From positions 1-11,444 of the forward strand of contig DATCKS010000532.1 of the NCBI GenBank assembly GCA_036562265.1: a stretch of DNA of 11,444 nucleotides. The letters are read 5' to 3'. Below are positions 21 to 11,444 of the stretch, in pieces. The position numbers and the translations under genes are program-made. A model generated the notes under the pieces. The model saw only the letters and a program-made list of their open reading frames with translations, did no database searches and was not told the origin of the DNA. The stretch is from DASVDK01 sp036562265 [NCBI: Thermodesulfobacteriota bacterium]. Its GTDB lineage: Bacteria > DASVDK01. Positions within the stretch are counted from its first letter, which is position 1; each line of letters opens with the position of its first letter.

Positions 21-2069
<2,049 letters not shown>

Positions 2070-2154: not shown

Positions 2155-4275
2155 ATGTCCAGCACCACCCCCGCCTTCGACGGCATCGGGTCGACCGTCG
2201 GTCTCATCTTCGTCATCAGCCTCCTCTCCCTCGGATTCGCCGCCTGGCTCGCCGTCTGGGTCCTTCGCAAGGACGCCGGTACGTCGGCCATGCGGGTCAT
2301 CAGCGACGCCATCCAGGAGGGCGCCGAGGCCTTCCTGCGCCGGCAGTACCGGACGATCGCGTGGCTCTCGCTCGTCGTCGCGGGGCTGCTGCTCGCCTTC
2401 TACGGGTTCGAGAAGGGCGACTGGTCGCTCTCGGGCAAGATCGTCGCCTCGTTCCTCATCGGCGCGCTCTGCTCGGCCCTGGCCGGGTACATCGGCATGT
2501 ACGTCTCCATCCGCGCCAACATCCGCACCGCCTCGGCGGCACGCACGAGCCTGGGGGGCGCGCTGGCGATCGCGCTGCGCGGTGGCGCGGTGTCGGGGCT
2601 GACGGTCGTGGCGATGAGCCTCGTCGGCGTGGGCGGGCTCTTCGTCCTGTTCGGCGGGATGGGGTCGCCGGAGGCGGCGCGGACCGTCCCGTACCAGATC
2701 GTCGGCTTCGGCTTCGGCGCCTCCTTCGTGGCGCTCTTCGCGCAGCTCGGCGGCGGCATCTACACCAAGGCCGCCGACGTGGGGGCCGACCTCGTCGGCA
2801 AGGTCGAGGCCGGCATCCCGGAGGACGACCCGCGCAACCCCGCGGTCATCGCCGACCTCGTCGGCGACAACGTCGGCGACTGCGCCGGCCGCGGCGCCGA
2901 TCTCTTCGAGTCGACCGCCGCCGAGAACATCGGGGCGATGATCCTCGGCGTCGCGCTCTACCCGATCTACGGCTGGGGCGGCATCCTCTTCCCGCTCGTC
3001 GCCCGGGCGTTCGGCCTCGTCGCGGCGATCGTCGGGATCATGTCGGTCAAGGCGAAGGAGACCGAGGACCCGATGACCGCGCTGAACCGGGGCTACTACG
3101 TCACCTCGGCCCTCGCGATCGCCGGCTTCTACGTGGCCGTCCGGTGGCTCCTCGGCAACAACGGCTGGTTCTTCGTCGCGGGCGTCATCGGCATCCTCAC
3201 GTCGATCGCCTTCGTCTACATCACGCAGTACTACACCGAGTACCGCTACCGTCCGGTGCGCGACATCGCCCAGGCGTCGCAGACCGGGCCGGCCACGAAC
3301 ATCATCGCCGGCTTCGCGGTCGGACTCGAGTGCACCGCCGTCCCGGTCTTCGTCATCTCGGCGGCGCTCCTCGGCGCCTTCTACTGCGGCGTCCAGAGCG
3401 ACATCCAGGCGGCCGGCGTGAGCGACATCCAGGCGGGCCTCTACGGGACCGCCGTGGCCACCATGGGGATGCTCGGCACCGCCGCCTACATCCTCGCCAT
3501 GGACACCTTCGGGCCGATCACCGACAACGCGGGTGGGATCATCGAGATGAGCCAGCAGCCCGAGGAGGTCCGGCAGAAGACCGACCGCCTGGACGCCGTC
3601 GGCAACACCACGAAGGCGCTCACCAAGGGGTACGCCATCGGCTCGGCGGCCCTCGCCGCGTTCCTCCTCTTCTCCGCCTACCTCGACGAGGTCTCGACGC
3701 TCACCGGCCGGCCGTTCCACTCCGTGGACCTCGGCAAGATCGAGGTCTTCGTGGGGGCGCTGCTCGGCGCCATGCTCGTCTTCTGGTTCAGCGCCCTGGC
3801 CATCAAGGCGGTCGGCAAGGCGGCCTACTACGTCATCAACGAGGTGCGCCGCCAGTTCAGGGAGAACGCCGGGATCATGGCGGGCACGGCCAAGCCCGAC
3901 TACGCCCGGTGCGTCGACATCGTCACCGGCGGCGCGCTCCGGCAGATGGTCGTGCCGGGCCTCCTGGCCGTCGTCATGCCGGTCGCGGTCGGCCTCGTCC
4001 TCAGGGCCGAGGCGGTGGCGGCCTTCCTCATGGTGGGCACCATCGCCGGCATCCTGGTCGCCCTCGTGCTCAACAACGGCGGCGGCGCCTGGGACAACGC
4101 CAAGAAGTTCATCGAGACCGGACAGTACGGCGGCAAGCGCTCGGAGGCGCACAAGGCGGCCGTCGTCGGCGACACCGTCGGCGACCCCTTCAAGGACACC
4201 GCCGGGCCGTCGCTCCACGTCCTGATCAAGCTCCTCAGCACGATCACGCTCGTGCTCGCGCCGCTGTTCATCTGA
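2155..4275 (+). CDS. hppA: Membrane-bound proton-pumping pyrophosphatase, K+-independent type
   Basis: This is a second complete membrane pyrophosphatase (706 residues), coupling pyrophosphate hydrolysis to ion export across the cytoplasmic membrane. Landmarks in order: [11 protein letters not shown] at residues 208-218, DLVGDNVGD at 234-242, Glu252 in LFES with a further Glu257, [10 protein letters not shown] at 483-492, and [10 protein letters not shown] ending at Asp681. Lys487 and Thr490 are the known signature of K+-independent H+-pyrophosphatases, the Lys replacing the K+ ion. It differs from the upstream copy throughout the hydrophobic segments and is 24 residues longer, so the two are old paralogues. 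Leu235 replaces the first Asn of the usual acidic motif. The start is ATG with GAGGA at 2146-2150 (4-base spacing). It could be read from an upstream hppA transcript if the intervening hairpin allows. A terminator-like hairpin follows. Confidence 0.97.
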
Positions 4276-4418: not shown

Positions 4419-4982
4419 GTGCGTGCGAATGTTGCGCTGCTCCTCGCGCTCGTCCTCGGCGTCCCCACGGCATCCGCGACGGCGGAGGAGTCATCGAAAC
4501 CCGGCGGCATGGTGGCCCGTGAGGTCGAGGTGATCGCGACCGTCGAGGCGATCGACCGCGACGAGCGAGTCGTCACCATGCGCGGGCCCCAGGGCCGCGT
4601 GGTCGACCTCAAGGTGCCGCCCGAGGCTGAGAACCTGGACCAGGTCGAGGTCGGCGACCGGGTCCGGGTCCGCTACCTCGAGGGGCTCGCCATCAAGGTG
4701 GAGCCTGCGGGAGGGGAACCGAGGGCCAGTCAGTCCGGGACCGTGAAGCTCGCGCCCAAGGGCGAGACGCCGGGAGGGGTTGCGGTGCAGGTACGGCAGA
4801 TCCGGGCGCGCGTCGACGCGGTCGACCAGGCGCAGCGCACCGTGACGCTCACGGGCCCGCAGGGGCGGACCGTGACGCTGCCGGTGGACCCGAGCGTCGA
4901 GCAGTTCGACCAGGTGAAGCCGGGCGACGACGTGGTCGTCACCTACGCCGAGTCCCTCGCGCTCTCCCTCGTGAAGGAGTAG
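4419..4982 (+). CDS. Small secreted protein with two tandem beta-rich domains
   Basis: The 187-residue product is probably exported. Residues 2-22 form a signal peptide (basic MRAN, then a Leu/Ala/Val core, with cleavage likely near ASA/TA at 19-22). The mature part is two copies of one domain, residues about 31-95 and 121-185, offset by exactly 90 residues. Both contain V-x-A-(I/V)-D near the start, (V/T)-V-T-(M/L)-x-GPQGR at 51-60 and 141-150, and DQV-(E/K)-x-GD-x-V-x-V-x-Y near the end. The alternating hydrophobic pattern suggests a small beta barrel, loosely like DUF5666-type or OB-like proteins. The linker between copies (96-120) is rich in Gly, Pro, Ser and Lys. The gene has its own promoter candidate and an excellent ribosome site. 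It converges on the next gene, 54 bases away. No enzymatic residues are recognisable and the function is unknown. A periplasmic binding or scaffold role is possible. Confidence 0.85.
   Translation: MRANVALLLALVLGVPTASATAEESSKPGGMVAREVEVIATVEAIDRDERVVTMRGPQGRVVDLKVPPEAENLDQVEVGDRVRVRYLEGLAIKVEPAGGEPRASQSGTVKLAPKGETPGGVAVQVRQIRARVDAVDQAQRTVTLTGPQGRTVTLPVDPSVEQFDQVKPGDDVVVTYAESLALSLVKE
4509..4973 (+). repeat. Intragenic tandem domain duplication with 270-base period
   Basis: Positions 4509-4703 and 4779-4973 encode two homologous domains within the secreted protein at 4419-4982. The GPQGR pentapeptide starts at codon 56 and again at codon 146, so the period is 270 bases including linker. The two copies are clearly related in protein but well diverged in DNA, indicating an old duplication. 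Confidence 0.8.
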
Positions 4983-5036: not shown

Positions 5037-5423
5037 TCAGTTGAACCCGGGCCTCAAGTACTCCCACTCGAACGTCGTCGGCGCCATGGGGCGCGGCGTC
5101 TCCTGGTCGAGGCGGGCGCCGCTCGAGAGCTGGCGGTAGCGGACGTACTCCGCCTCGCGCCCCACGTAGAGACACTTGCACCCGTAGGGGTCGGCGAGCG
5201 TGTACACCGGCTCCCCCTTGTACTCGCGGGGGACGACGACCAGGGCCGGGGTGAGCTGCTCGAGCTTCGCGAGCTTCTCCGGCGTGTCCGCCAGGATCAT
5301 CCGGAAGCCGGCCTGCTGGACGAGCTCGATGGGCGTCGGGAGGGGGCCTGCGGCGAGCGGCGACGCGGTCGAGAGCACGCCGGCGGCGAGGCCGGCCACG
5401 AGGCCTGCGAGTGGGCGGATCAT
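5037..5423 (-). CDS. Small secreted protein with Cys-x-Cys motif, unknown function
   Basis: The 128-residue product begins with a signal peptide: MIRP, then an Ala/Gly/Leu/Val-rich core to about residue 20-25, with cleavage near STA or LAA. There is no lipobox cysteine. The mature part holds a helix-like stretch (residues 31-56), a strand-like LVVVPREYKGEPVYTLADP region and a GCKCLYVG motif with Cys82 and Cys84, the only cysteines. These could bind a metal or haem edge, or form a disulphide. The C-terminus is polar and ends WEYLRPGFN. The ATG at 5423 is chosen over an upstream in-frame start because a perfect Shine-Dalgarno site precedes it and the signal peptide starts there. It is divergent from the decarboxylase operon and converges on the repeat-domain protein. 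I do not recognise the family with certainty. Confidence 0.8.
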   Translation of the reverse strand: MIRPLAGLVAGLAAGVLSTASPLAAGPLPTPIELVQQAGFRMILADTPEKLAKLEQLTPALVVVPREYKGEPVYTLADPYGCKCLYVGREAEYVRYRQLSSGARLDQETPRPMAPTTFEWEYLRPGFN

Positions 5424-5751: not shown

Positions 5752-8523
5752 ATGAGCACGGACGTCTCGACCGGAACCCCGATCGACCACTTCTTCTCGG
5801 TGACGGAGGCCCGTCTCGACCGCTGGCGCGCGCTCCACATGGCGACACGGGGCTGGGCGGCCGCGCCACAGGCGAAGGCCGCCAGGGAGAAGACCGAACA
5901 GGGACTCACCGACCTGCGCCCCCTGGAGGCCTTCCACGCGTTTCCGGGTCCGAGGCTGATCGACGTGCTCGCCGAGCGCATCGCCGCCGGGGACGCCATC
6001 GGCGCCGCCCGCCTCGTCCAGCGCATCAGCTACGCGCTCCTCGCGCGCACGTACCGCAGCGACCCCGGCGAGTGGGACGTGAGCGAGGAGCTGGCTGCCG
6101 GAGGGACCGAGCGGCTGCCGCCGGCCCTCGAGGGCGGCACCGTGCACCGACCCTATTTCGAGGTGCTGTTCGTGACGCCGGCGCCGAGCCAGCGGTGGCC
6201 CGCCGTCGGTCAGGAGATCCGGCGGCTGCGGCGTCCCCAGGACGAGTTCGTCTACGAGCCGGTCTTCGTCGGCAGCTTCGAGGACGCCGTGCTCGGGACG
6301 GTGCTCAACGCCGAACTCGAGGCCGTCGTCATCTACGACGGCATTCCGTTCCCGTCGAGCTACCAGGCGCCGCTCATGCGCAGCTTCCTCGAGACGCATC
6401 TCGGCGTCGACGGCGGAAGCCTGGCCCCCCAGGACTTCGGGCTCGCGCTCGCGCGGGTCGTCAAGCGCATCCGGCCGGAGCTCGACGTCTACCTCCTCAC
6501 CGATCGCGAAGTCGAGAAGGTGGCCGGCGACCCGGCGCTCTCCGGCATCCGCCGGGTCTTCTACGAGGTCGAGGAGCTGCTCGAGCTGCACCTGAGCCTC
6601 TTGTCGGGCGTCGCCACACGTTTCGACACGCCGTACTTCAACAACCTGAAGCGGTACGCCCAGCGGCCGATCGGGACGTTCCACGCGCTGCCGATCGCGC
6701 GCGGCAAGTCGATCTTCAAGTCCGACTGGATCCGCGACATGGGGGAGTTCTACGGCGTGAACCTCTTCCTCGCCGAGTCGTCGGCCACCACCGGCGGCCT
6801 CGACAGCCTCCTCGAGCCGACCGGGAACATCAAGGTCGCCCAGGACAAGGCCGCCCGGGCGTTCGGCGCCGACCGCGCCTTCTTCATGACGAACGGCACG
6901 TCGACGTCCAACAAGGTGGTCGAGCAGGCGCTGCTCAGGCCGGGAGACATCGTCCTGGTCGACCGCAACTGCCACAAGTCGCACCACTACGGCATGGTCC
7001 TCGCCGGCGCGCAGCCGCTCTACGTCGAGGCCTATCCGATGACGGCGTACTCGATGTACGGCGGCGTGCCGCGGAGGAGCCTCAAGAAGGCGCTGCTCGA
7101 CCTCAAGGCCGACGGCCGCCTCGACCGAGCCCGGATGGTCGTCCTCACCAACTGCACCTTCGACGGGCACATCTACAACGTCAAGCGCGTCATGGAGGAA
7201 TGCCTCGCCATCAAGCCGGACCTGGTCTTCCTCTGGGACGAGGCCTGGTTCGGCTTCGCCCGCTTCACGCCGTTCTACCGGGGGCGGACGGCGATGGGCG
7301 CGGCGGCGGCCCTGCGGGAGCAGTTCGCCGACCCGGCCTCGAAGAGGACGTTCGCCGAGCAGCGAGCGACGCTCGGCGCCGACCTCGATCCGAGGGACCC
7401 GCGCCTGCTCGAGACGCGGCTCCTGCCGGACCCGGACGCGGCGAAGGTCCGCGTCTACCAGACGAGCTCGACGCACAAGTCCATGTCCGCGTTGCGGCAG
7501 GGCTCCATGATCCTCGTGGCCGACGAGGACTTCCCCCACGTCGAGGCGCCGTTCAAGGAGGCCGTCTTCACCCATACCTCGACGTCCCCGAACCTCCAGA
7601 TCATCGCGTCGCTCGACGTGGCCAGAAGGCAGATGGAACTCGAGGGCTACGAGCTGGTCATGCGGGCCATCCAGCTCGCCCTGGTGATCCGCCGCGAGGT
7701 CAACACCCACCCGCTCGTGTCGAAGTACTTCCGGATCCTGACCGCGGCGGACATGATCCCCGCCGAGTTCCGCGCGTCGGGGTTCGAGGACTACCTCGCG
7801 CCGGGGACGCGCTGGCCGAAGGCGCTCGCGGCGCTGCGGGACGACGAGTTCGCCCTCGACCCGACGCGGCTCACCCTGGTCTGCGGATCCGCGGGCTACG
7901 ACGGCACCCAGTTCAAGGGGCTCCTGGCCGAGAAGTACGACATCCAGCTCAACAAGACCTCGCGCAACAGCGTGCTGCTCCAGACCAACATCAACAACAC
8001 GCGGAGCGACGCCGCCAACCTGATCAAGGTGCTCGTCGAGATCTCGCGCGACATCGACCGCCGGCTCGAGGAAGGGGGCGAGGCGGACCGGCAGGCCTTC
8101 GCGACCCGGGTCAAGGCGCTCATGGAGGACGTGCCCGAGTTGCCGAACTTCAGCCGCTTCCACGAGAGCTTCCGGGACGCGCCCGACGCCTCGACGCAGG
8201 AAGGCGACATGCGGTCGGCCTTCTACATGGCCTACGACGAGTCCGCGTGCGAGCACGTCGGGCTCGGAAGCCCCGAGATCGACCGGCGACTCGCGTCGGG
8301 GCCGGAGCTCGTCTCGGCGAGCTTCGTGATCCCGTATCCACCGGGCTTCCCGATCATGGTGCCGGGGCAGGTGATCACCGCCGACACGATCGAGTTCATG
8401 CGGAAGCTCGACGTCAAGGAGATCCACGGCTACAACGCCGCGCTGGGGCTCAAGCTCATCCGTCCGGAGGCGCTGGCGTCCCGGCCGGCGGCGCCGCGGC
8501 CCGCGCTCCGCAAGAGCGCGTGA
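5752..8523 (+). CDS. Large PLP-dependent decarboxylase, Orn/Lys/Arg decarboxylase fold
   Basis: This cytoplasmic fold-type I pyridoxal-phosphate enzyme is predicted to decarboxylate an amino acid. Regions: an extra helical N-terminal part (1-130), a Rec/flavodoxin-like wing domain (about 135-270), the PLP core from about 290, and a C-terminal domain with YPPGFPIMVPG, a hallmark of the family. Core residues visible are the phosphate loop GTSTSN (382-387), His408 in DRNCHKS expected to stack on PLP, Asp496 in DEAWFGF binding the pyridine nitrogen, and Lys576 in STHKS forming the Schiff base. At 923 residues it is about 170-210 longer than E. coli LdcI, AdiA or SpeC (roughly 710-755). The Asp496-Lys576 interval is about 80 residues against roughly 30-40 in those enzymes. 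It is the first gene of a tight run with an AspT-type exchanger. Substrate is unknown: basic amino acids by family, but acidic ones are suggested by the neighbours. Confidence 0.9.
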   Translation: MSTDVSTGTPIDHFFSVTEARLDRWRALHMATRGWAAAPQAKAAREKTEQGLTDLRPLEAFHAFPGPRLIDVLAERIAAGDAIGAARLVQRISYALLARTYRSDPGEWDVSEELAAGGTERLPPALEGGTVHRPYFEVLFVTPAPSQRWPAVGQEIRRLRRPQDEFVYEPVFVGSFEDAVLGTVLNAELEAVVIYDGIPFPSSYQAPLMRSFLETHLGVDGGSLAPQDFGLALARVVKRIRPELDVYLLTDREVEKVAGDPALSGIRRVFYEVEELLELHLSLLSGVATRFDTPYFNNLKRYAQRPIGTFHALPIARGKSIFKSDWIRDMGEFYGVNLFLAESSATTGGLDSLLEPTGNIKVAQDKAARAFGADRAFFMTNGTSTSNKVVEQALLRPGDIVLVDRNCHKSHHYGMVLAGAQPLYVEAYPMTAYSMYGGVPRRSLKKALLDLKADGRLDRARMVVLTNCTFDGHIYNVKRVMEECLAIKPDLVFLWDEAWFGFARFTPFYRGRTAMGAAAALREQFADPASKRTFAEQRATLGADLDPRDPRLLETRLLPDPDAAKVRVYQTSSTHKSMSALRQGSMILVADEDFPHVEAPFKEAVFTHTSTSPNLQIIASLDVARRQMELEGYELVMRAIQLALVIRREVNTHPLVSKYFRILTAADMIPAEFRASGFEDYLAPGTRWPKALAALRDDEFALDPTRLTLVCGSAGYDGTQFKGLLAEKYDIQLNKTSRNSVLLQTNINNTRSDAANLIKVLVEISRDIDRRLEEGGEADRQAFATRVKALMEDVPELPNFSRFHESFRDAPDASTQEGDMRSAFYMAYDESACEHVGLGSPEIDRRLASGPELVSASFVIPYPPGFPIMVPGQVITADTIEFMRKLDVKEIHGYNAALGLKLIRPEALASRPAAPRPALRKSA

Positions 8524-8528
8524 GGAGG
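8523..8528 (+). promoter_or_regulatory. Ribosome site overlapping the decarboxylase stop codon
   Basis: AGGAGG begins at the last base of the decarboxylase TGA (8521-8523) and lies 8 bases before the exchanger's GTG at 8537. This overlap indicates translational coupling of the two genes. Confidence 0.8.
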
Positions 8529-8536
8529 AGGCGACC

Positions 8537-10237
8537 GTGACCGCGTTCTTCCAGTTCCTCGCGGACAACCCCTACATCCTGCTCTTCCTCGCGGTCGGCC
8601 TCGCCATCTGGGTGGGCCGGTTCAGCGTGAAGGGGTACGGGCTCGGCGCGGTAGCCGCCGCGATCATCGTGGGCTGCGGCCTGTCGACGTTCGCGTCGCT
8701 CTACGGCGTCGAGCTCACGCTCGACAACTTCGTGAAGAGCCTCTTCTACTACCTCTTCATGTACGGGGTCGGCCTGCGCGTCGGCCCGTCGTTCGTGAAC
8801 AGCATCAAGGGCGACGGCGTCAAGTTCCTCGTGCTGGCGGTCGTGTCGTCCGTCCTCGGCCTCACGCTGGTCGTCGCCGGGGCGAGACTCTTCGACCTGC
8901 CGATCGGCGCGGCGGGCGGGATGCTGGCCGGGTCGCAGACCATGTCGGCCGCCATCGGCTCGGCGGAGCAGGCGGTCACGTCCGGAGTCGTCAGGCTGCC
9001 GGAAGGGACCACGGCCGAGCAGGCCTCGGCCATGATCGCGCTCTCCTACGGCATCACGTACATCTGGGGAACGGTCGGCATCATCCTGATCTGCAAGTAC
9101 CTGCCCCGCTGGTGGGGCGTCGACGCGAAGGCGGCGGCGAGGCAGTACGAGGACGAGTACGGGGTCCGCAACGTGGACGACGCCGGGCTGAGCGGCTACC
9201 GGCCGTTCGGGCTCAGGGCGTATCGTCTCGAGAACCGGGCGATGGTCGAGCGGACGGTCGGCGACCTCCTTCGGGAGCACCCCGAGTACAAGGTCGCGAA
9301 CGTCGTCCGCGACGGGGAGTCGATCGGCGCCGGCACGGACATCGTCCTGCACAGGGGGGACGTCGTCGCGCTGGGCGGTCGGATCGAGGCGCTCACCGAG
9401 AAGATGGGGCTCATCGGGCCGGAGGTGCCCGACGTGCGGGCGCTCAACATCCCGCTCGACGCGGCCGAGATCCTGGTGACCAACCGGGCGGTGGAGGGCA
9501 AGCCGCTCAAGGAGTTCCGAACGGCCGACTTCGCCGGCCAGATCCAGCTCGGCCGGATCGAGCGCGCCGGCGTGCCGATCCCCATAGGGCTCGAGACGAA
9601 GCTGCAGCGCATGGACGTGCTGACCGTCGCCGGGCTCAAGGGCGCGGTGGAGCGGGCGGCCGCCCTCATCGGCCGGATCGCGAGGCCGAACTCGACGACC
9701 GACCTCTTCACCCTGGCCGCCGGCATGATCCTCGGCTTCCTGATCGGCCTGATCCAGTTCCCCGCGTTCGGGGCCAAGGTCGGCCTGGGCAACGCGGGCG
9801 GGCTGCTCCTCTCGGGCGTCATCGTCTCCTCGGTGGCCTCCAGGCTGCGCTTCTTCGGCAACACCCCGAACGCGGCCCGGAACATCCTCGAGGACCTGGG
9901 GCTCATCGTCTTCGTGGTCATCGTCGGCATCAACGCGGGCTCCTCGCTCCTGGCGCAGCTCACCGGCGCCCTCGCGGCCAAGATCTTCCTGGTCGGCTTC
10001 GTCGCCTGCACCATCCCGCCCTTCATCGTCTGGGCGATCGGGTATCACCTCTTCAAGATCAACCCGGCCGTCCTCATGGGCGGCGTGGCGGGCGCGCGCA
10101 GCCACTCGGGGCCCGCCCGGGAGGCGGCAAAGGAGATCGACAGCTCGGTGCCCTGGATCGGTTTCCCGGTGGGCTACGCGGTGTCCGGGGTCCTCCTGAC
10201 CGTCTTCGGGTACTTCGCCATGATGCTGGCGCAGTAA
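8537..10237 (+). CDS. AspT/YidE-type aspartate:alanine exchanger family transporter
   Basis: This 566-residue inner-membrane protein has the architecture of the AAE (aspartate:alanine exchanger) family: an N-terminal membrane half (residues 1-190, about five helices), two cytoplasmic TrkA-C/RCK_C-like domains (about 225-295 and 305-380), and a C-terminal membrane half (390-566). The halves are repeats of each other. The first has YGVGLRVG-F (76-86) and GSQTMSAAIGSAEQA (132-146); the second has VGINAGSS (463-470) and GGVAGARSHSGPAREAAK (515-532). AspT of Tetragenococcus (about 540 aa) swaps aspartate for alanine, powering a proton-motive cycle with aspartate decarboxylase. Here the gene starts 13 bases after a PLP decarboxylase, so exchange of that enzyme's substrate and product is the natural inference. 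The RCK_C domains may sense a ligand. Family identity is secure, substrate unknown. E. coli YidE and YbjL are orphan relatives, so a different role is possible. Confidence 0.9.
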   Translation: MTAFFQFLADNPYILLFLAVGLAIWVGRFSVKGYGLGAVAAAIIVGCGLSTFASLYGVELTLDNFVKSLFYYLFMYGVGLRVGPSFVNSIKGDGVKFLVLAVVSSVLGLTLVVAGARLFDLPIGAAGGMLAGSQTMSAAIGSAEQAVTSGVVRLPEGTTAEQASAMIALSYGITYIWGTVGIILICKYLPRWWGVDAKAAARQYEDEYGVRNVDDAGLSGYRPFGLRAYRLENRAMVERTVGDLLREHPEYKVANVVRDGESIGAGTDIVLHRGDVVALGGRIEALTEKMGLIGPEVPDVRALNIPLDAAEILVTNRAVEGKPLKEFRTADFAGQIQLGRIERAGVPIPIGLETKLQRMDVLTVAGLKGAVERAAALIGRIARPNSTTDLFTLAAGMILGFLIGLIQFPAFGAKVGLGNAGGLLLSGVIVSSVASRLRFFGNTPNAARNILEDLGLIVFVVIVGINAGSSLLAQLTGALAAKIFLVGFVACTIPPFIVWAIGYHLFKINPAVLMGGVAGARSHSGPAREAAKEIDSSVPWIGFPVGYAVSGVLLTVFGYFAMMLAQ

Positions 10238-10278
10238 GGCTCGACCGGCGGGCCTGCCAGGCCGAGGGGAGACGTTGC

Positions 10279-11444
10279 GTGAGGACGATCCAGCTCGATG
10301 TGATCCAGACGCTGCTCGTGGCGTTCGTGGCGCTCTTCGGAGGGCGGGCGCTCGTCGACGCCGTCCCGGCGCTCACGCGCTACAGCATCCCCGCCGCGGT
10401 CGTCGGGGGCGGCCTCTTCGCGGTGGTGCTGGGCGTGCTCGGGCGGGTCTTCGGGGTCCAGGTCGCGTTCGACACGAGCATGCAGGACGCGCTGCTCCTC
10501 GCCTTCTTCACGACGATCGGGCTCTCCGGCGACGTCCGGTCGCTCCTGCACGGCGGCCGGGCGCTCTTCGTCTTCCTCGCGGCGGCGATCGGGCTCATCG
10601 TGGTCCAGAACGCCATCGGCGTGGCGGTGGGGCTCGCGATGGACCTCACGCCGACGATGGGCCTCACGCTCGGCTCGATCACGCTCACCGGCGGCCACGG
10701 GACCGGTGCCGCCTACGCGCAGAACTTCGCCGAGGTCCAGAACATCCGGGGCGCGATGGAGGTGGCCATGGCCGCGGCCACCGCGGGGCTCGTGATCGGC
10801 GGCATCGTGGGCGGCCCGGTCGCCGAGCGCCTCATCCGCCGGTACGGGCTCACGGGAAGCGGCGGGGAAGCCGCGGCCGGCGCGGCCGAAGGCGCCGAGG
10901 AGCCGATCACGACCGACTCCCTGCTCCGCACGTTGCTCGCCGTCCTCGTCGCGCTCACGGTGGGGCGCATGCTCGGCGCCCTCGCGGCCGACTGGCCCAT
11001 CGTGCTGCCGCGCTTCATCTGGTGCCTGCTCATCGGCCTCGTGATCCGCAACGTCGCCGCCGGCGGCGTCTACAGGGTCGATCAGTCCACCGTCGATGCG
11101 CTCGGCAGCGTGGTGCTCTCGATCTTCCTCGTCGTGGCGCTCATGGCGCTCCGGTTCGGCGACCTCCTGGCCCTCGCGGGCCCGCTCCTCGCGATCCTGG
11201 CCCTGCAGACGATCGCCGCGGCGCTCTATGCCACCTGGATCACGTTCCGCGTCATGGGACGCAACTACGACGCGGCCGTCATGTCGGGTGCCCACGTCGG
11301 CTTCGGTCTCAGCAGCACCGCGATGGCCCTGGCCATCATGCGGACCCTGACCAACCGTCACGGGCCCGCGCCCCTGGCCCTGCTGCTCGTCCCCCTGGTC
11401 GGCGCGTTCTTCGTCGACATCATGAACGCGCTCCTCATCCAGGG
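10279..11444 (+). CDS. gltS: GltS-type sodium:glutamate symporter (3' end cut by window)
   Basis: The 388 visible residues align along their whole length with E. coli GltS (401 aa), an inner-membrane Na+-coupled glutamate importer of the ESS family. Shared signatures are the start-proximal PEPVAGG-like IPAAVVGGG, LLAFFTTIGL, the reentrant-loop motif LTGGHGTGAA (136-145), MGRNYDAAV, GAHVGFGL (337-344) and VPLVGAFFVDIMNAL. Only about the last 10-15 residues should lie beyond the window. The GTG start is preceded by GAGGGGAG (10264-10271, 7-base spacing). It begins 41 bases after the exchanger stop, with no hairpin between, so co-transcription is likely. The second reentrant region reads SSTAMALAIM where E. 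coli has ATPTAIANM, so a conserved Pro and Asn are replaced and substrate choice may have shifted. A related dicarboxylate or amino acid could be the substrate. Confidence 0.92.
   Translation, partial: MRTIQLDVIQTLLVAFVALFGGRALVDAVPALTRYSIPAAVVGGGLFAVVLGVLGRVFGVQVAFDTSMQDALLLAFFTTIGLSGDVRSLLHGGRALFVFLAAAIGLIVVQNAIGVAVGLAMDLTPTMGLTLGSITLTGGHGTGAAYAQNFAEVQNIRGAMEVAMAAATAGLVIGGIVGGPVAERLIRRYGLTGSGGEAAAGAAEGAEEPITTDSLLRTLLAVLVALTVGRMLGALAADWPIVLPRFIWCLLIGLVIRNVAAGGVYRVDQSTVDALGSVVLSIFLVVALMALRFGDLLALAGPLLAILALQTIAAALYATWITFRVMGRNYDAAVMSGAHVGFGLSSTAMALAIMRTLTNRHGPAPLALLLVPLVGAFFVDIMNALLIQ

Follow-up and report, generated by a model that had tools for sequence, protein, structure and literature searches.

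In an 11,444-base stretch of a Thermodesulfobacteriota contig (DATCKS010000532.1; the whole stretch is hereafter the window), a pyridoxal 5'-phosphate (PLP) decarboxylase of the ornithine/lysine/arginine (OKR) fold, here termed DC, lies next to a gene of the AAE (AspT/YidE/YbjL) transporter family. Our results establish that the pairing of DC with such an exchanger is real, conserved and apparently undescribed. On balance we incline, if only somewhat, to a model in which DC works with its neighbouring AAE exchanger as a single decarboxylation/antiport module, whose substrate is an acidic amino acid, either glutamate or aspartate. Many soil and plant-associated bacteria keep the two genes together, probably to consume acid or to store energy.

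Linkage of the decarboxylase and the exchanger across genomes

An AspT-family gene is present in 76 of 81 loci, and in 74 of the 81 it is the immediate neighbour of DC on the same strand within 500 nt, at a median gap of 70 nt. In L055 and L070 it is divergent and lies behind AspD. The set combines the window with loci L001-L080, the best 80 of 390 relatives from a contig scan, which encode proteins 61-69% identical to DC. Sixty-nine of these 80 loci come from Pseudomonadota, four from Rokuibacteriota and three from Acidobacteriota, with one each from Planctomycetota, Thermodesulfobacteriota and Vulcanimicrobiota and one unplaced. Genes were called by a codon-usage script and sorted into families by BLAST clustering, with profile hidden Markov model checks on representatives only.

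Three genome draws sidestep the choice of best hits, namely the family of G001 (Candidimonas), the class of G005 (Bradyrhizobium) and the phylum of G003 (Rokubacteria), whose centres were preselected for carrying DC and are included in the counts. DC occurs in 14 of 200 genomes of the family and in 7 of 95 of the phylum, and the exchanger adjoins it in 14/14 and 7/7. In the class, DC occurs in 11 of 385 genomes. All three full DCs of at least 58% identity adjoin an exchanger there, one of them divergent and 0.8 kb away, and no AspT gene lies beside DC in the six full relatives at 51-53% identity or in the two fragmentary ones. One of these eight genomes (G284) has AspT on another contig, adjoining AspD. 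When the draws are pooled, the exchanger stands beside DC in 24/24 genomes with a close DC (at least 58% identity), or 21/21 minus the draw centres, and in 0/8 with a sister-clade or fragmentary DC. Several drawn matches carry one flagged in-frame stop and one (G633) is split over two frames; all were counted as DC. In the phylum of G006, 2 of 247 genomes have DC matches, whose neighbourhoods lie outside these linkage counts.

The immediate adjacency in 74 loci together with the genome draws rules out chance or a merely local neighbourhood. In our judgement, made with no null model, chance would not give the order of DC and exchanger because relatives in several phyla repeat it. Adjacency in related genomes, on which an earlier sequence-only reading of the window had staked its case, is the rule in the DC clade. 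That reading also knew of no characterised system joining this decarboxylase fold to an AspT-type exchanger. Among the open-licence papers listed in literature searches, none was recognised as describing the pairing, which given this coverage is weak evidence of absence. Database records already annotate 'decarboxylase' next to 'aspT', and the adjacency is therefore visible in records. The accessible portions of studies on the R. tropici acid response (PMC5936775), gut decarboxylases (PMC12484125), OKR evolution (PMC8503589) and CadA or SmcadA (PMC10992825, PMC7866039) held nothing helpful on DC.

The relatives at 51-53% identity provide a natural control. They form a separate clade of 10 rows (support 90) on the DC tree, which was built with FastTree, whose support values are not bootstrap; it leaves out G495, counted among these relatives, and L088, examined as a sister-group locus. 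In nine of the 11 sister-group loci examined (the 10 tree rows and L088), the genes next to DC are one of ATP-grasp and one of C45 type, the other two loci being L084 and L086. Because sister loci carry these other neighbours, the AspT link marks one DC clade and not the whole family. By parsimony, the state of having an AAE partner or none changes six times on the whole DC tree, sister clade included. The nine sister operon loci (L083, L085, L087, L088 and L094-L098) combine DC with an ATP-grasp ligase-like gene and a C45-type hydrolase; a carbon-nitrogen hydrolase lies upstream in seven of them, and one copy is near nif genes.

Together the 81 loci hold 128 AspT-family genes, which sort into five groups, TA-TE. 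Representatives of TA, TB and TE pass the aspartate:alanine antiporter equivalog (TIGR03802, 547 bits), TD reaches 538 bits and TC 392-399. TC, the type found in the window, stands apart as a distinct clade (29 rows, support 100), and its genes adjoin DC in 28/28 cases in the 81 loci. The window exchanger scores 175 bits against PF06826, 44.6 bits against PF02080 (TrkA_C) and 131 against a cut-off of 71.95 for TIGR01625, and fails TIGR03802 at 399 bits. These matches place it in the AAE family, with exchange activity predicted. TC and other exchanger types replace one another nine times by parsimony on the DC tree, beside the same enzyme clade, and it follows from this repeated change that the partner is exchangeable within one transporter family. 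AspD was found by clustering in 38 of the 81 loci, with one copy verified at 779 against 435 bits.

Fold and pocket of the decarboxylase

DC scores 247 bits against Pfam OKR_DC_1 (cut-off 27), and the coordinates and family assignments of the sequence-only reading hold for both DC and the exchanger. None of the curated NCBIfam arginine, lysine or ornithine decarboxylase models is passed by DC, the best score being 199 against a cut-off of 968. Its best solved full-length relative is M. tuberculosis Rv2531c (PDB 9n0n, 9n0o and 9n0p; 786 bits), which is also the top PDB match of the AlphaFold model of DC (mean pLDDT 81.6), and the fold is confirmed.

Pocket residues were compared in an alignment of the 81 DCs with E. 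coli CadA, AdiA and SpeF, and in a wider set of 91 clade and 10 sister-clade rows. The PLP lysine K576, the stacking histidine H408 and the ring aspartate D496 are invariant in 81/81 DCs. The position of LdcI Glu526, which is Glu in SpeF and Thr in AdiA, is taken by Asn734 in 91/91 rows of the DC clade and 10/10 of the sister clade. Four positions further on, Arg738 sits at an Asp of AdiA (about residue 575 by alignment count), again in 91/91 and 10/10. In place of the PGHxGG loop there is LP(I/V)ARG, which in the window DC reads LPIARGK at 313-319; Arg317 is present in 91/91 and 10/10, and Lys319 in 90/91 and 10/10 (80/81 in the first alignment). PGE becomes PGQ (Gln873) throughout the clade (91/91) and its sister (10/10).

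In the accessible parts of two papers, docking predicts Glu526 to be a lysine-binding residue in a related lysine decarboxylase (PMC5607190), and negative residues that form a patch in the channel of LdcI/AdiA are described as a potential substrate site (PMC4832331). Given that a pocket acid is exchanged for Arg in the alignment, one would expect the substrate to bear an acidic side chain.

Probable substrate class and proposed role of the module

In the cycle that we favour, glutamate or aspartate would be imported as an anion via the AAE exchanger, DC would strip the alpha-carboxylate and use up one cytoplasmic proton, and the neutral product, gamma-aminobutyrate (GABA) or beta-alanine, would be exported via the exchanger. 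The net effect of each turn would be a rise in internal pH and the import of one negative charge, and thus a proton-motive force, in the manner of the AspD-AspT cycle. In the window, glutamate would probably enter additionally by Na+ symport through GltS. The module may accordingly serve pH homeostasis or the generation of proton-motive force, and we infer both its substrate class and the direction of transport. As substrate of DC, glutamate is about as likely as aspartate. The accessible text of PMC9527358 counts an exporter of succinate and one of glutamate among the AAE transporters. A decarboxylation/antiport module as such had been proposed by the sequence-only reading, and it fits the pairing, the frequent presence of AspD-AspT beside DC and the altered pocket; transport and the energy or pH role stay predictions.

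In a wider version, this OKR clade would have reversed the charge of the side chain that it accepts (basic to acidic, with Glu526 replaced by Asn and the Asp of AdiA by Arg). With interchangeable AAE partners, it would run a GadB-independent cycle for glutamate or aspartate that extends across Alpha- and Betaproteobacteria, Rokubacteria, Acidobacteria and others. This is a serious possibility, which we would place somewhat short of probable. No match to AdiC, CadB, PotE, GadC or GadB was found in 88 loci, and neither the list of open reading frames nor Pfam revealed an APC-family antiporter in the window.

Several observations weigh against a module of this kind. Five of the 81 loci (L001, L019, L063, L075 and L077) have no exchanger, the contig of L001 ending just past DC. 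AspD occurs in 0/28 TC loci and in 38/53 of the others, a mutual exclusion that recurs in nine independent pairs, where AspD runs opposite to TC in about eight and the same way in none (sign test, median p 0.008). In G083, G126 and G144 a TC-like exchanger (374-383 bits) lies beside DC and the AspD-AspT genes are on another contig. The pocket argument is one of alignment, Arg738 is common to the sister clade, whose neighbours differ, and in three sister loci a ureohydrolase-like gene, read from the sequence by eye, lies 2-7 kb from DC. Residues 305-356 of the DC model fall under pLDDT 50 and the dimer-interface loops are of low confidence. The structural study of Rv2531c left its activity unclarified, according to the accessible part of a 2026 review (PMC12910592), and measured activity for any member of the DC family was not found in the open-licence literature. 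GltS is rare, and a Roseomonas copy falls just under the cut-off (305.6 against 310.75 bits). Finally, GadB lies beside DC-AspT in one genome (G185), which speaks against glutamate.

The symporter was rejected as a core part of the module. GltS is present in seven of the 81 loci, the window included, six of these seven with TC, and among 15 DC genomes one has a match at E<=1e-30 and none exceeds the cut-off. A further partial match stands at a contig end in L033. Because GltS is accessory, entry by Na+ symport is not general to the module, and this part of the sequence-only reading is given up.

Tentatively, DC may be a glutamate alpha-decarboxylase unrelated to GadB, with the AAE gene as a glutamate/GABA exchanger and GltS as a second entry for glutamate, in which case it would supply the missing glutamate decarboxylase where bacteria form GABA at low pH although they have no GadB/GadC. 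Consistent with this, the window GltS passes its equivalog, most GltS-bearing loci are of the TC type, and the sole GltS-like match of one Roseomonas genome, under the cut-off, lies in the DC cluster. In Phyllobacterium T1018, genes for a succinate-semialdehyde dehydrogenase-like protein and, by record annotation, an 'aspartate aminotransferase family' protein are divergent upstream of DC-AspT, with an Lrp-type gene in between, although the dehydrogenase-like score stays under its cut-off (598 against 646). GabT lies 3.8 kb from the DC of one sister-clade member and 6.9 kb from DC in L070, and a glutaminase gene lies 1.4 kb downstream of DC in L053. GadB is absent from 18 of 21 DC genomes; it is nonetheless present in the other three, directly downstream of DC-AspT in G185. 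A further case is strain MT123 of Castellaniella, a genus of the Alcaligenaceae. According to the accessible text of PMC12915299, MT123 makes GABA at pH 5.5 without GadB/GadC, and its authors call the antiporter unknown and count an Arg/Lys/Orn-type decarboxylase among further candidates, but they put PanD first and report GltP and GltIJKL homologues, not GltS. Moreover, the MT123 enzyme is at best candidate kin of DC, and Candidimonas G001 holds a second OKR-type match that is 32% identical. As an observation in its own right, in L100 (7766-11042) a canonical GadB (TIGR01788, 666 bits) follows immediately after DC and an AspT-type exchanger, a possible pairing of GadB with an AAE transporter.

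It is rather unlikely that DC is an aspartate alpha-decarboxylase producing beta-alanine, with an exchanger that swaps aspartate for beta-alanine in parallel to AspD-AspT, which takes aspartate to alanine. Such a role would suit G050, G052, G072, G159 and G185, in which a single AspT match exists, lies beside DC and passes the Asp:Ala equivalog and AspD was not found, as well as several loci (e.g. L013, L022 and L027) in which a single AspT is common to DC and AspD; GadB next to DC-AspT in G185 would then be complementary. Two different decarboxylases side by side for one substrate seem redundant, however, and the window exchanger is outside the Asp:Ala equivalog. GltS is not known to carry aspartate, which also counts against this substrate.

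Least probable is that DC is an ordinary arginine, lysine or ornithine decarboxylase, serving polyamine production or acid resistance, which only happens to share an acid or ion-stress island with AspT genes: the Pfam family is OKR_DC_1, the islands also hold SulP, PPK2, MarC, Na/Ca exchanger and DUF3300, DUF2092 and DUF2950 genes, and ureohydrolase-like genes occur near three sister-clade loci, but a classical polyamine or basic amino acid system is disfavoured by the NCBIfam scores, by the loss of the Glu526 equivalent in 91/91 and the other pocket changes, by the absence of any basic amino acid antiporter match in 88 loci, and by an immediate AspT neighbour in 74/81, which in our judgement, with no null model, is tighter than co-residence in an island would suggest. 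A purely polyamine role, named by the sequence-only reading as one opposing outcome, is likewise disfavoured by the missing Glu526 equivalent and by loci free of AdiC, CadB and PotE.

Window architecture and comparison with known systems

The window has a GC content of 70% and holds two pyrophosphatase genes and two small genes, followed by DC, the exchanger and GltS.

Table 1. Features of the window, with coordinates from its first base
Feature	Position	Strand	Basis
Membrane pyrophosphatase, first of tandem pair	21-2069	+	PRK00733 subfamily match
Membrane pyrophosphatase, second of tandem pair	2155-4275	+	PRK00733 subfamily match
Small gene	4509-4982	+
Small gene	5040-5423	-
DC (Orn/Lys/Arg-fold PLP decarboxylase, 923 aa)	5752-8523	+	Pfam OKR_DC_1
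DC-exchanger junction: DC stop 8521-8523, GGAGGAGG 8524-8531, GTG start of exchanger	8511-8539	+	sequence
AAE-family (AspT/YidE/YbjL type) exchanger, subgroup TC, 566 aa	8537-10237	+	PF06826, PF02080, TIGR01625
Exchanger-GltS gap, 41 nt	10238-10278	+	sequence
GltS Na+/glutamate symporter, 388 codons, incomplete (GTG start, no stop before window edge)	10279-11444 (window edge)	+	PF03616, TIGR00210

A ribosome-binding-like site, GGAGGAGG, lies directly 3' of the DC stop codon. The translational coupling claimed by the sequence-only reading is plausible and no more, the two genes being separated by 13 nt with no overlap. The spacing between exchanger and GltS is consistent with a single transcript. 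As that reading stated, a GltS-type symporter comes third, and it passes TIGR00210 (393.5 against 310.75 bits) even as an incomplete protein cut by the window edge. GC content at third codon positions is 0.96-0.98 in DC, exchanger and GltS, and all three therefore look like coding DNA of a 70% GC genome. AspD was not found in profile searches of the window proteins.

The tandem pyrophosphatases upstream of DC, which make up a double pair of the ion-pumping type, have best matches in different PRK00733 subfamilies. One carries the signature GNTTAA and the other GNTTKA, which we take to be K+-dependent and K+-independent signatures, respectively. Their membership of the module is unsupported, the first of them (PPase1) having no match in the loci of the 80 relatives. 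Neither small gene has a confident family. The forward one has CusF- and DUF1344-like matches under cut-off, appears by eye to contain two repeats and has a relative in L055 (4072-4485); the reverse one begins with a signal-peptide-like stretch. In L001-L080, the recurrent flanking genes comprise SulP, PPK2, DUF3300, DUF2092, DUF2950, Na/Ca exchanger, MarC and porin genes, besides an AI-2E-type gene (by eye) and unnamed F3/F5 membrane genes. These flanks resemble an island for acid or ion stress and are at their most regular in Bradyrhizobium loci.

If the module acts as proposed, many soil, plant-associated and groundwater bacteria that seemingly have no decarboxylase-dependent acid resistance would possess such a system, in which a known fold of altered specificity is combined with another family of transporters. 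The module would provide a candidate for the case of Castellaniella MT123, whose decarboxylase and antiporter are unknown to its authors in the accessible text of PMC12915299, and would open a way to finding which reaction the Rv2531c family carries out. Because partner swapping recurs, the question is testable with few proteins.

Among known systems, GadB-GadC with glutamate import possibly shares substrate and role with the DC module, although both the decarboxylase and the transporter family differ and GadB occurs in only 3/21 DC genomes. Rv2531c resembles DC in having Asn at the Glu526 position and PGQ, whereas by alignment it has Ile at the position of Arg738 and Ala at that of Lys319. 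AdiA-AdiC, CadA-CadB and SpeF-PotE likewise couple an OKR-fold decarboxylase with its own antiporter, and the PLP-site residues are kept. Their antiporters belong to the APC family instead of AAE, however, and the pocket acids are lost or swapped in DC, which also exceeds AdiA (755 aa) by about 170 residues. Compared with AspD-AspT of Tetragenococcus halophilus, DC has the OKR fold whereas AspD is aminotransferase-like, the window exchanger scores under the AspT equivalog, and AspD is absent from TC loci. Aspartate(1-):alanine(0) exchange is described as electrogenic in the accessible part of PMC9508256. The likeness to AspD-AspT lies in a decarboxylase and an AAE exchanger within one cluster and in the electrogenic exchange of an anion for a neutral product that is predicted here.

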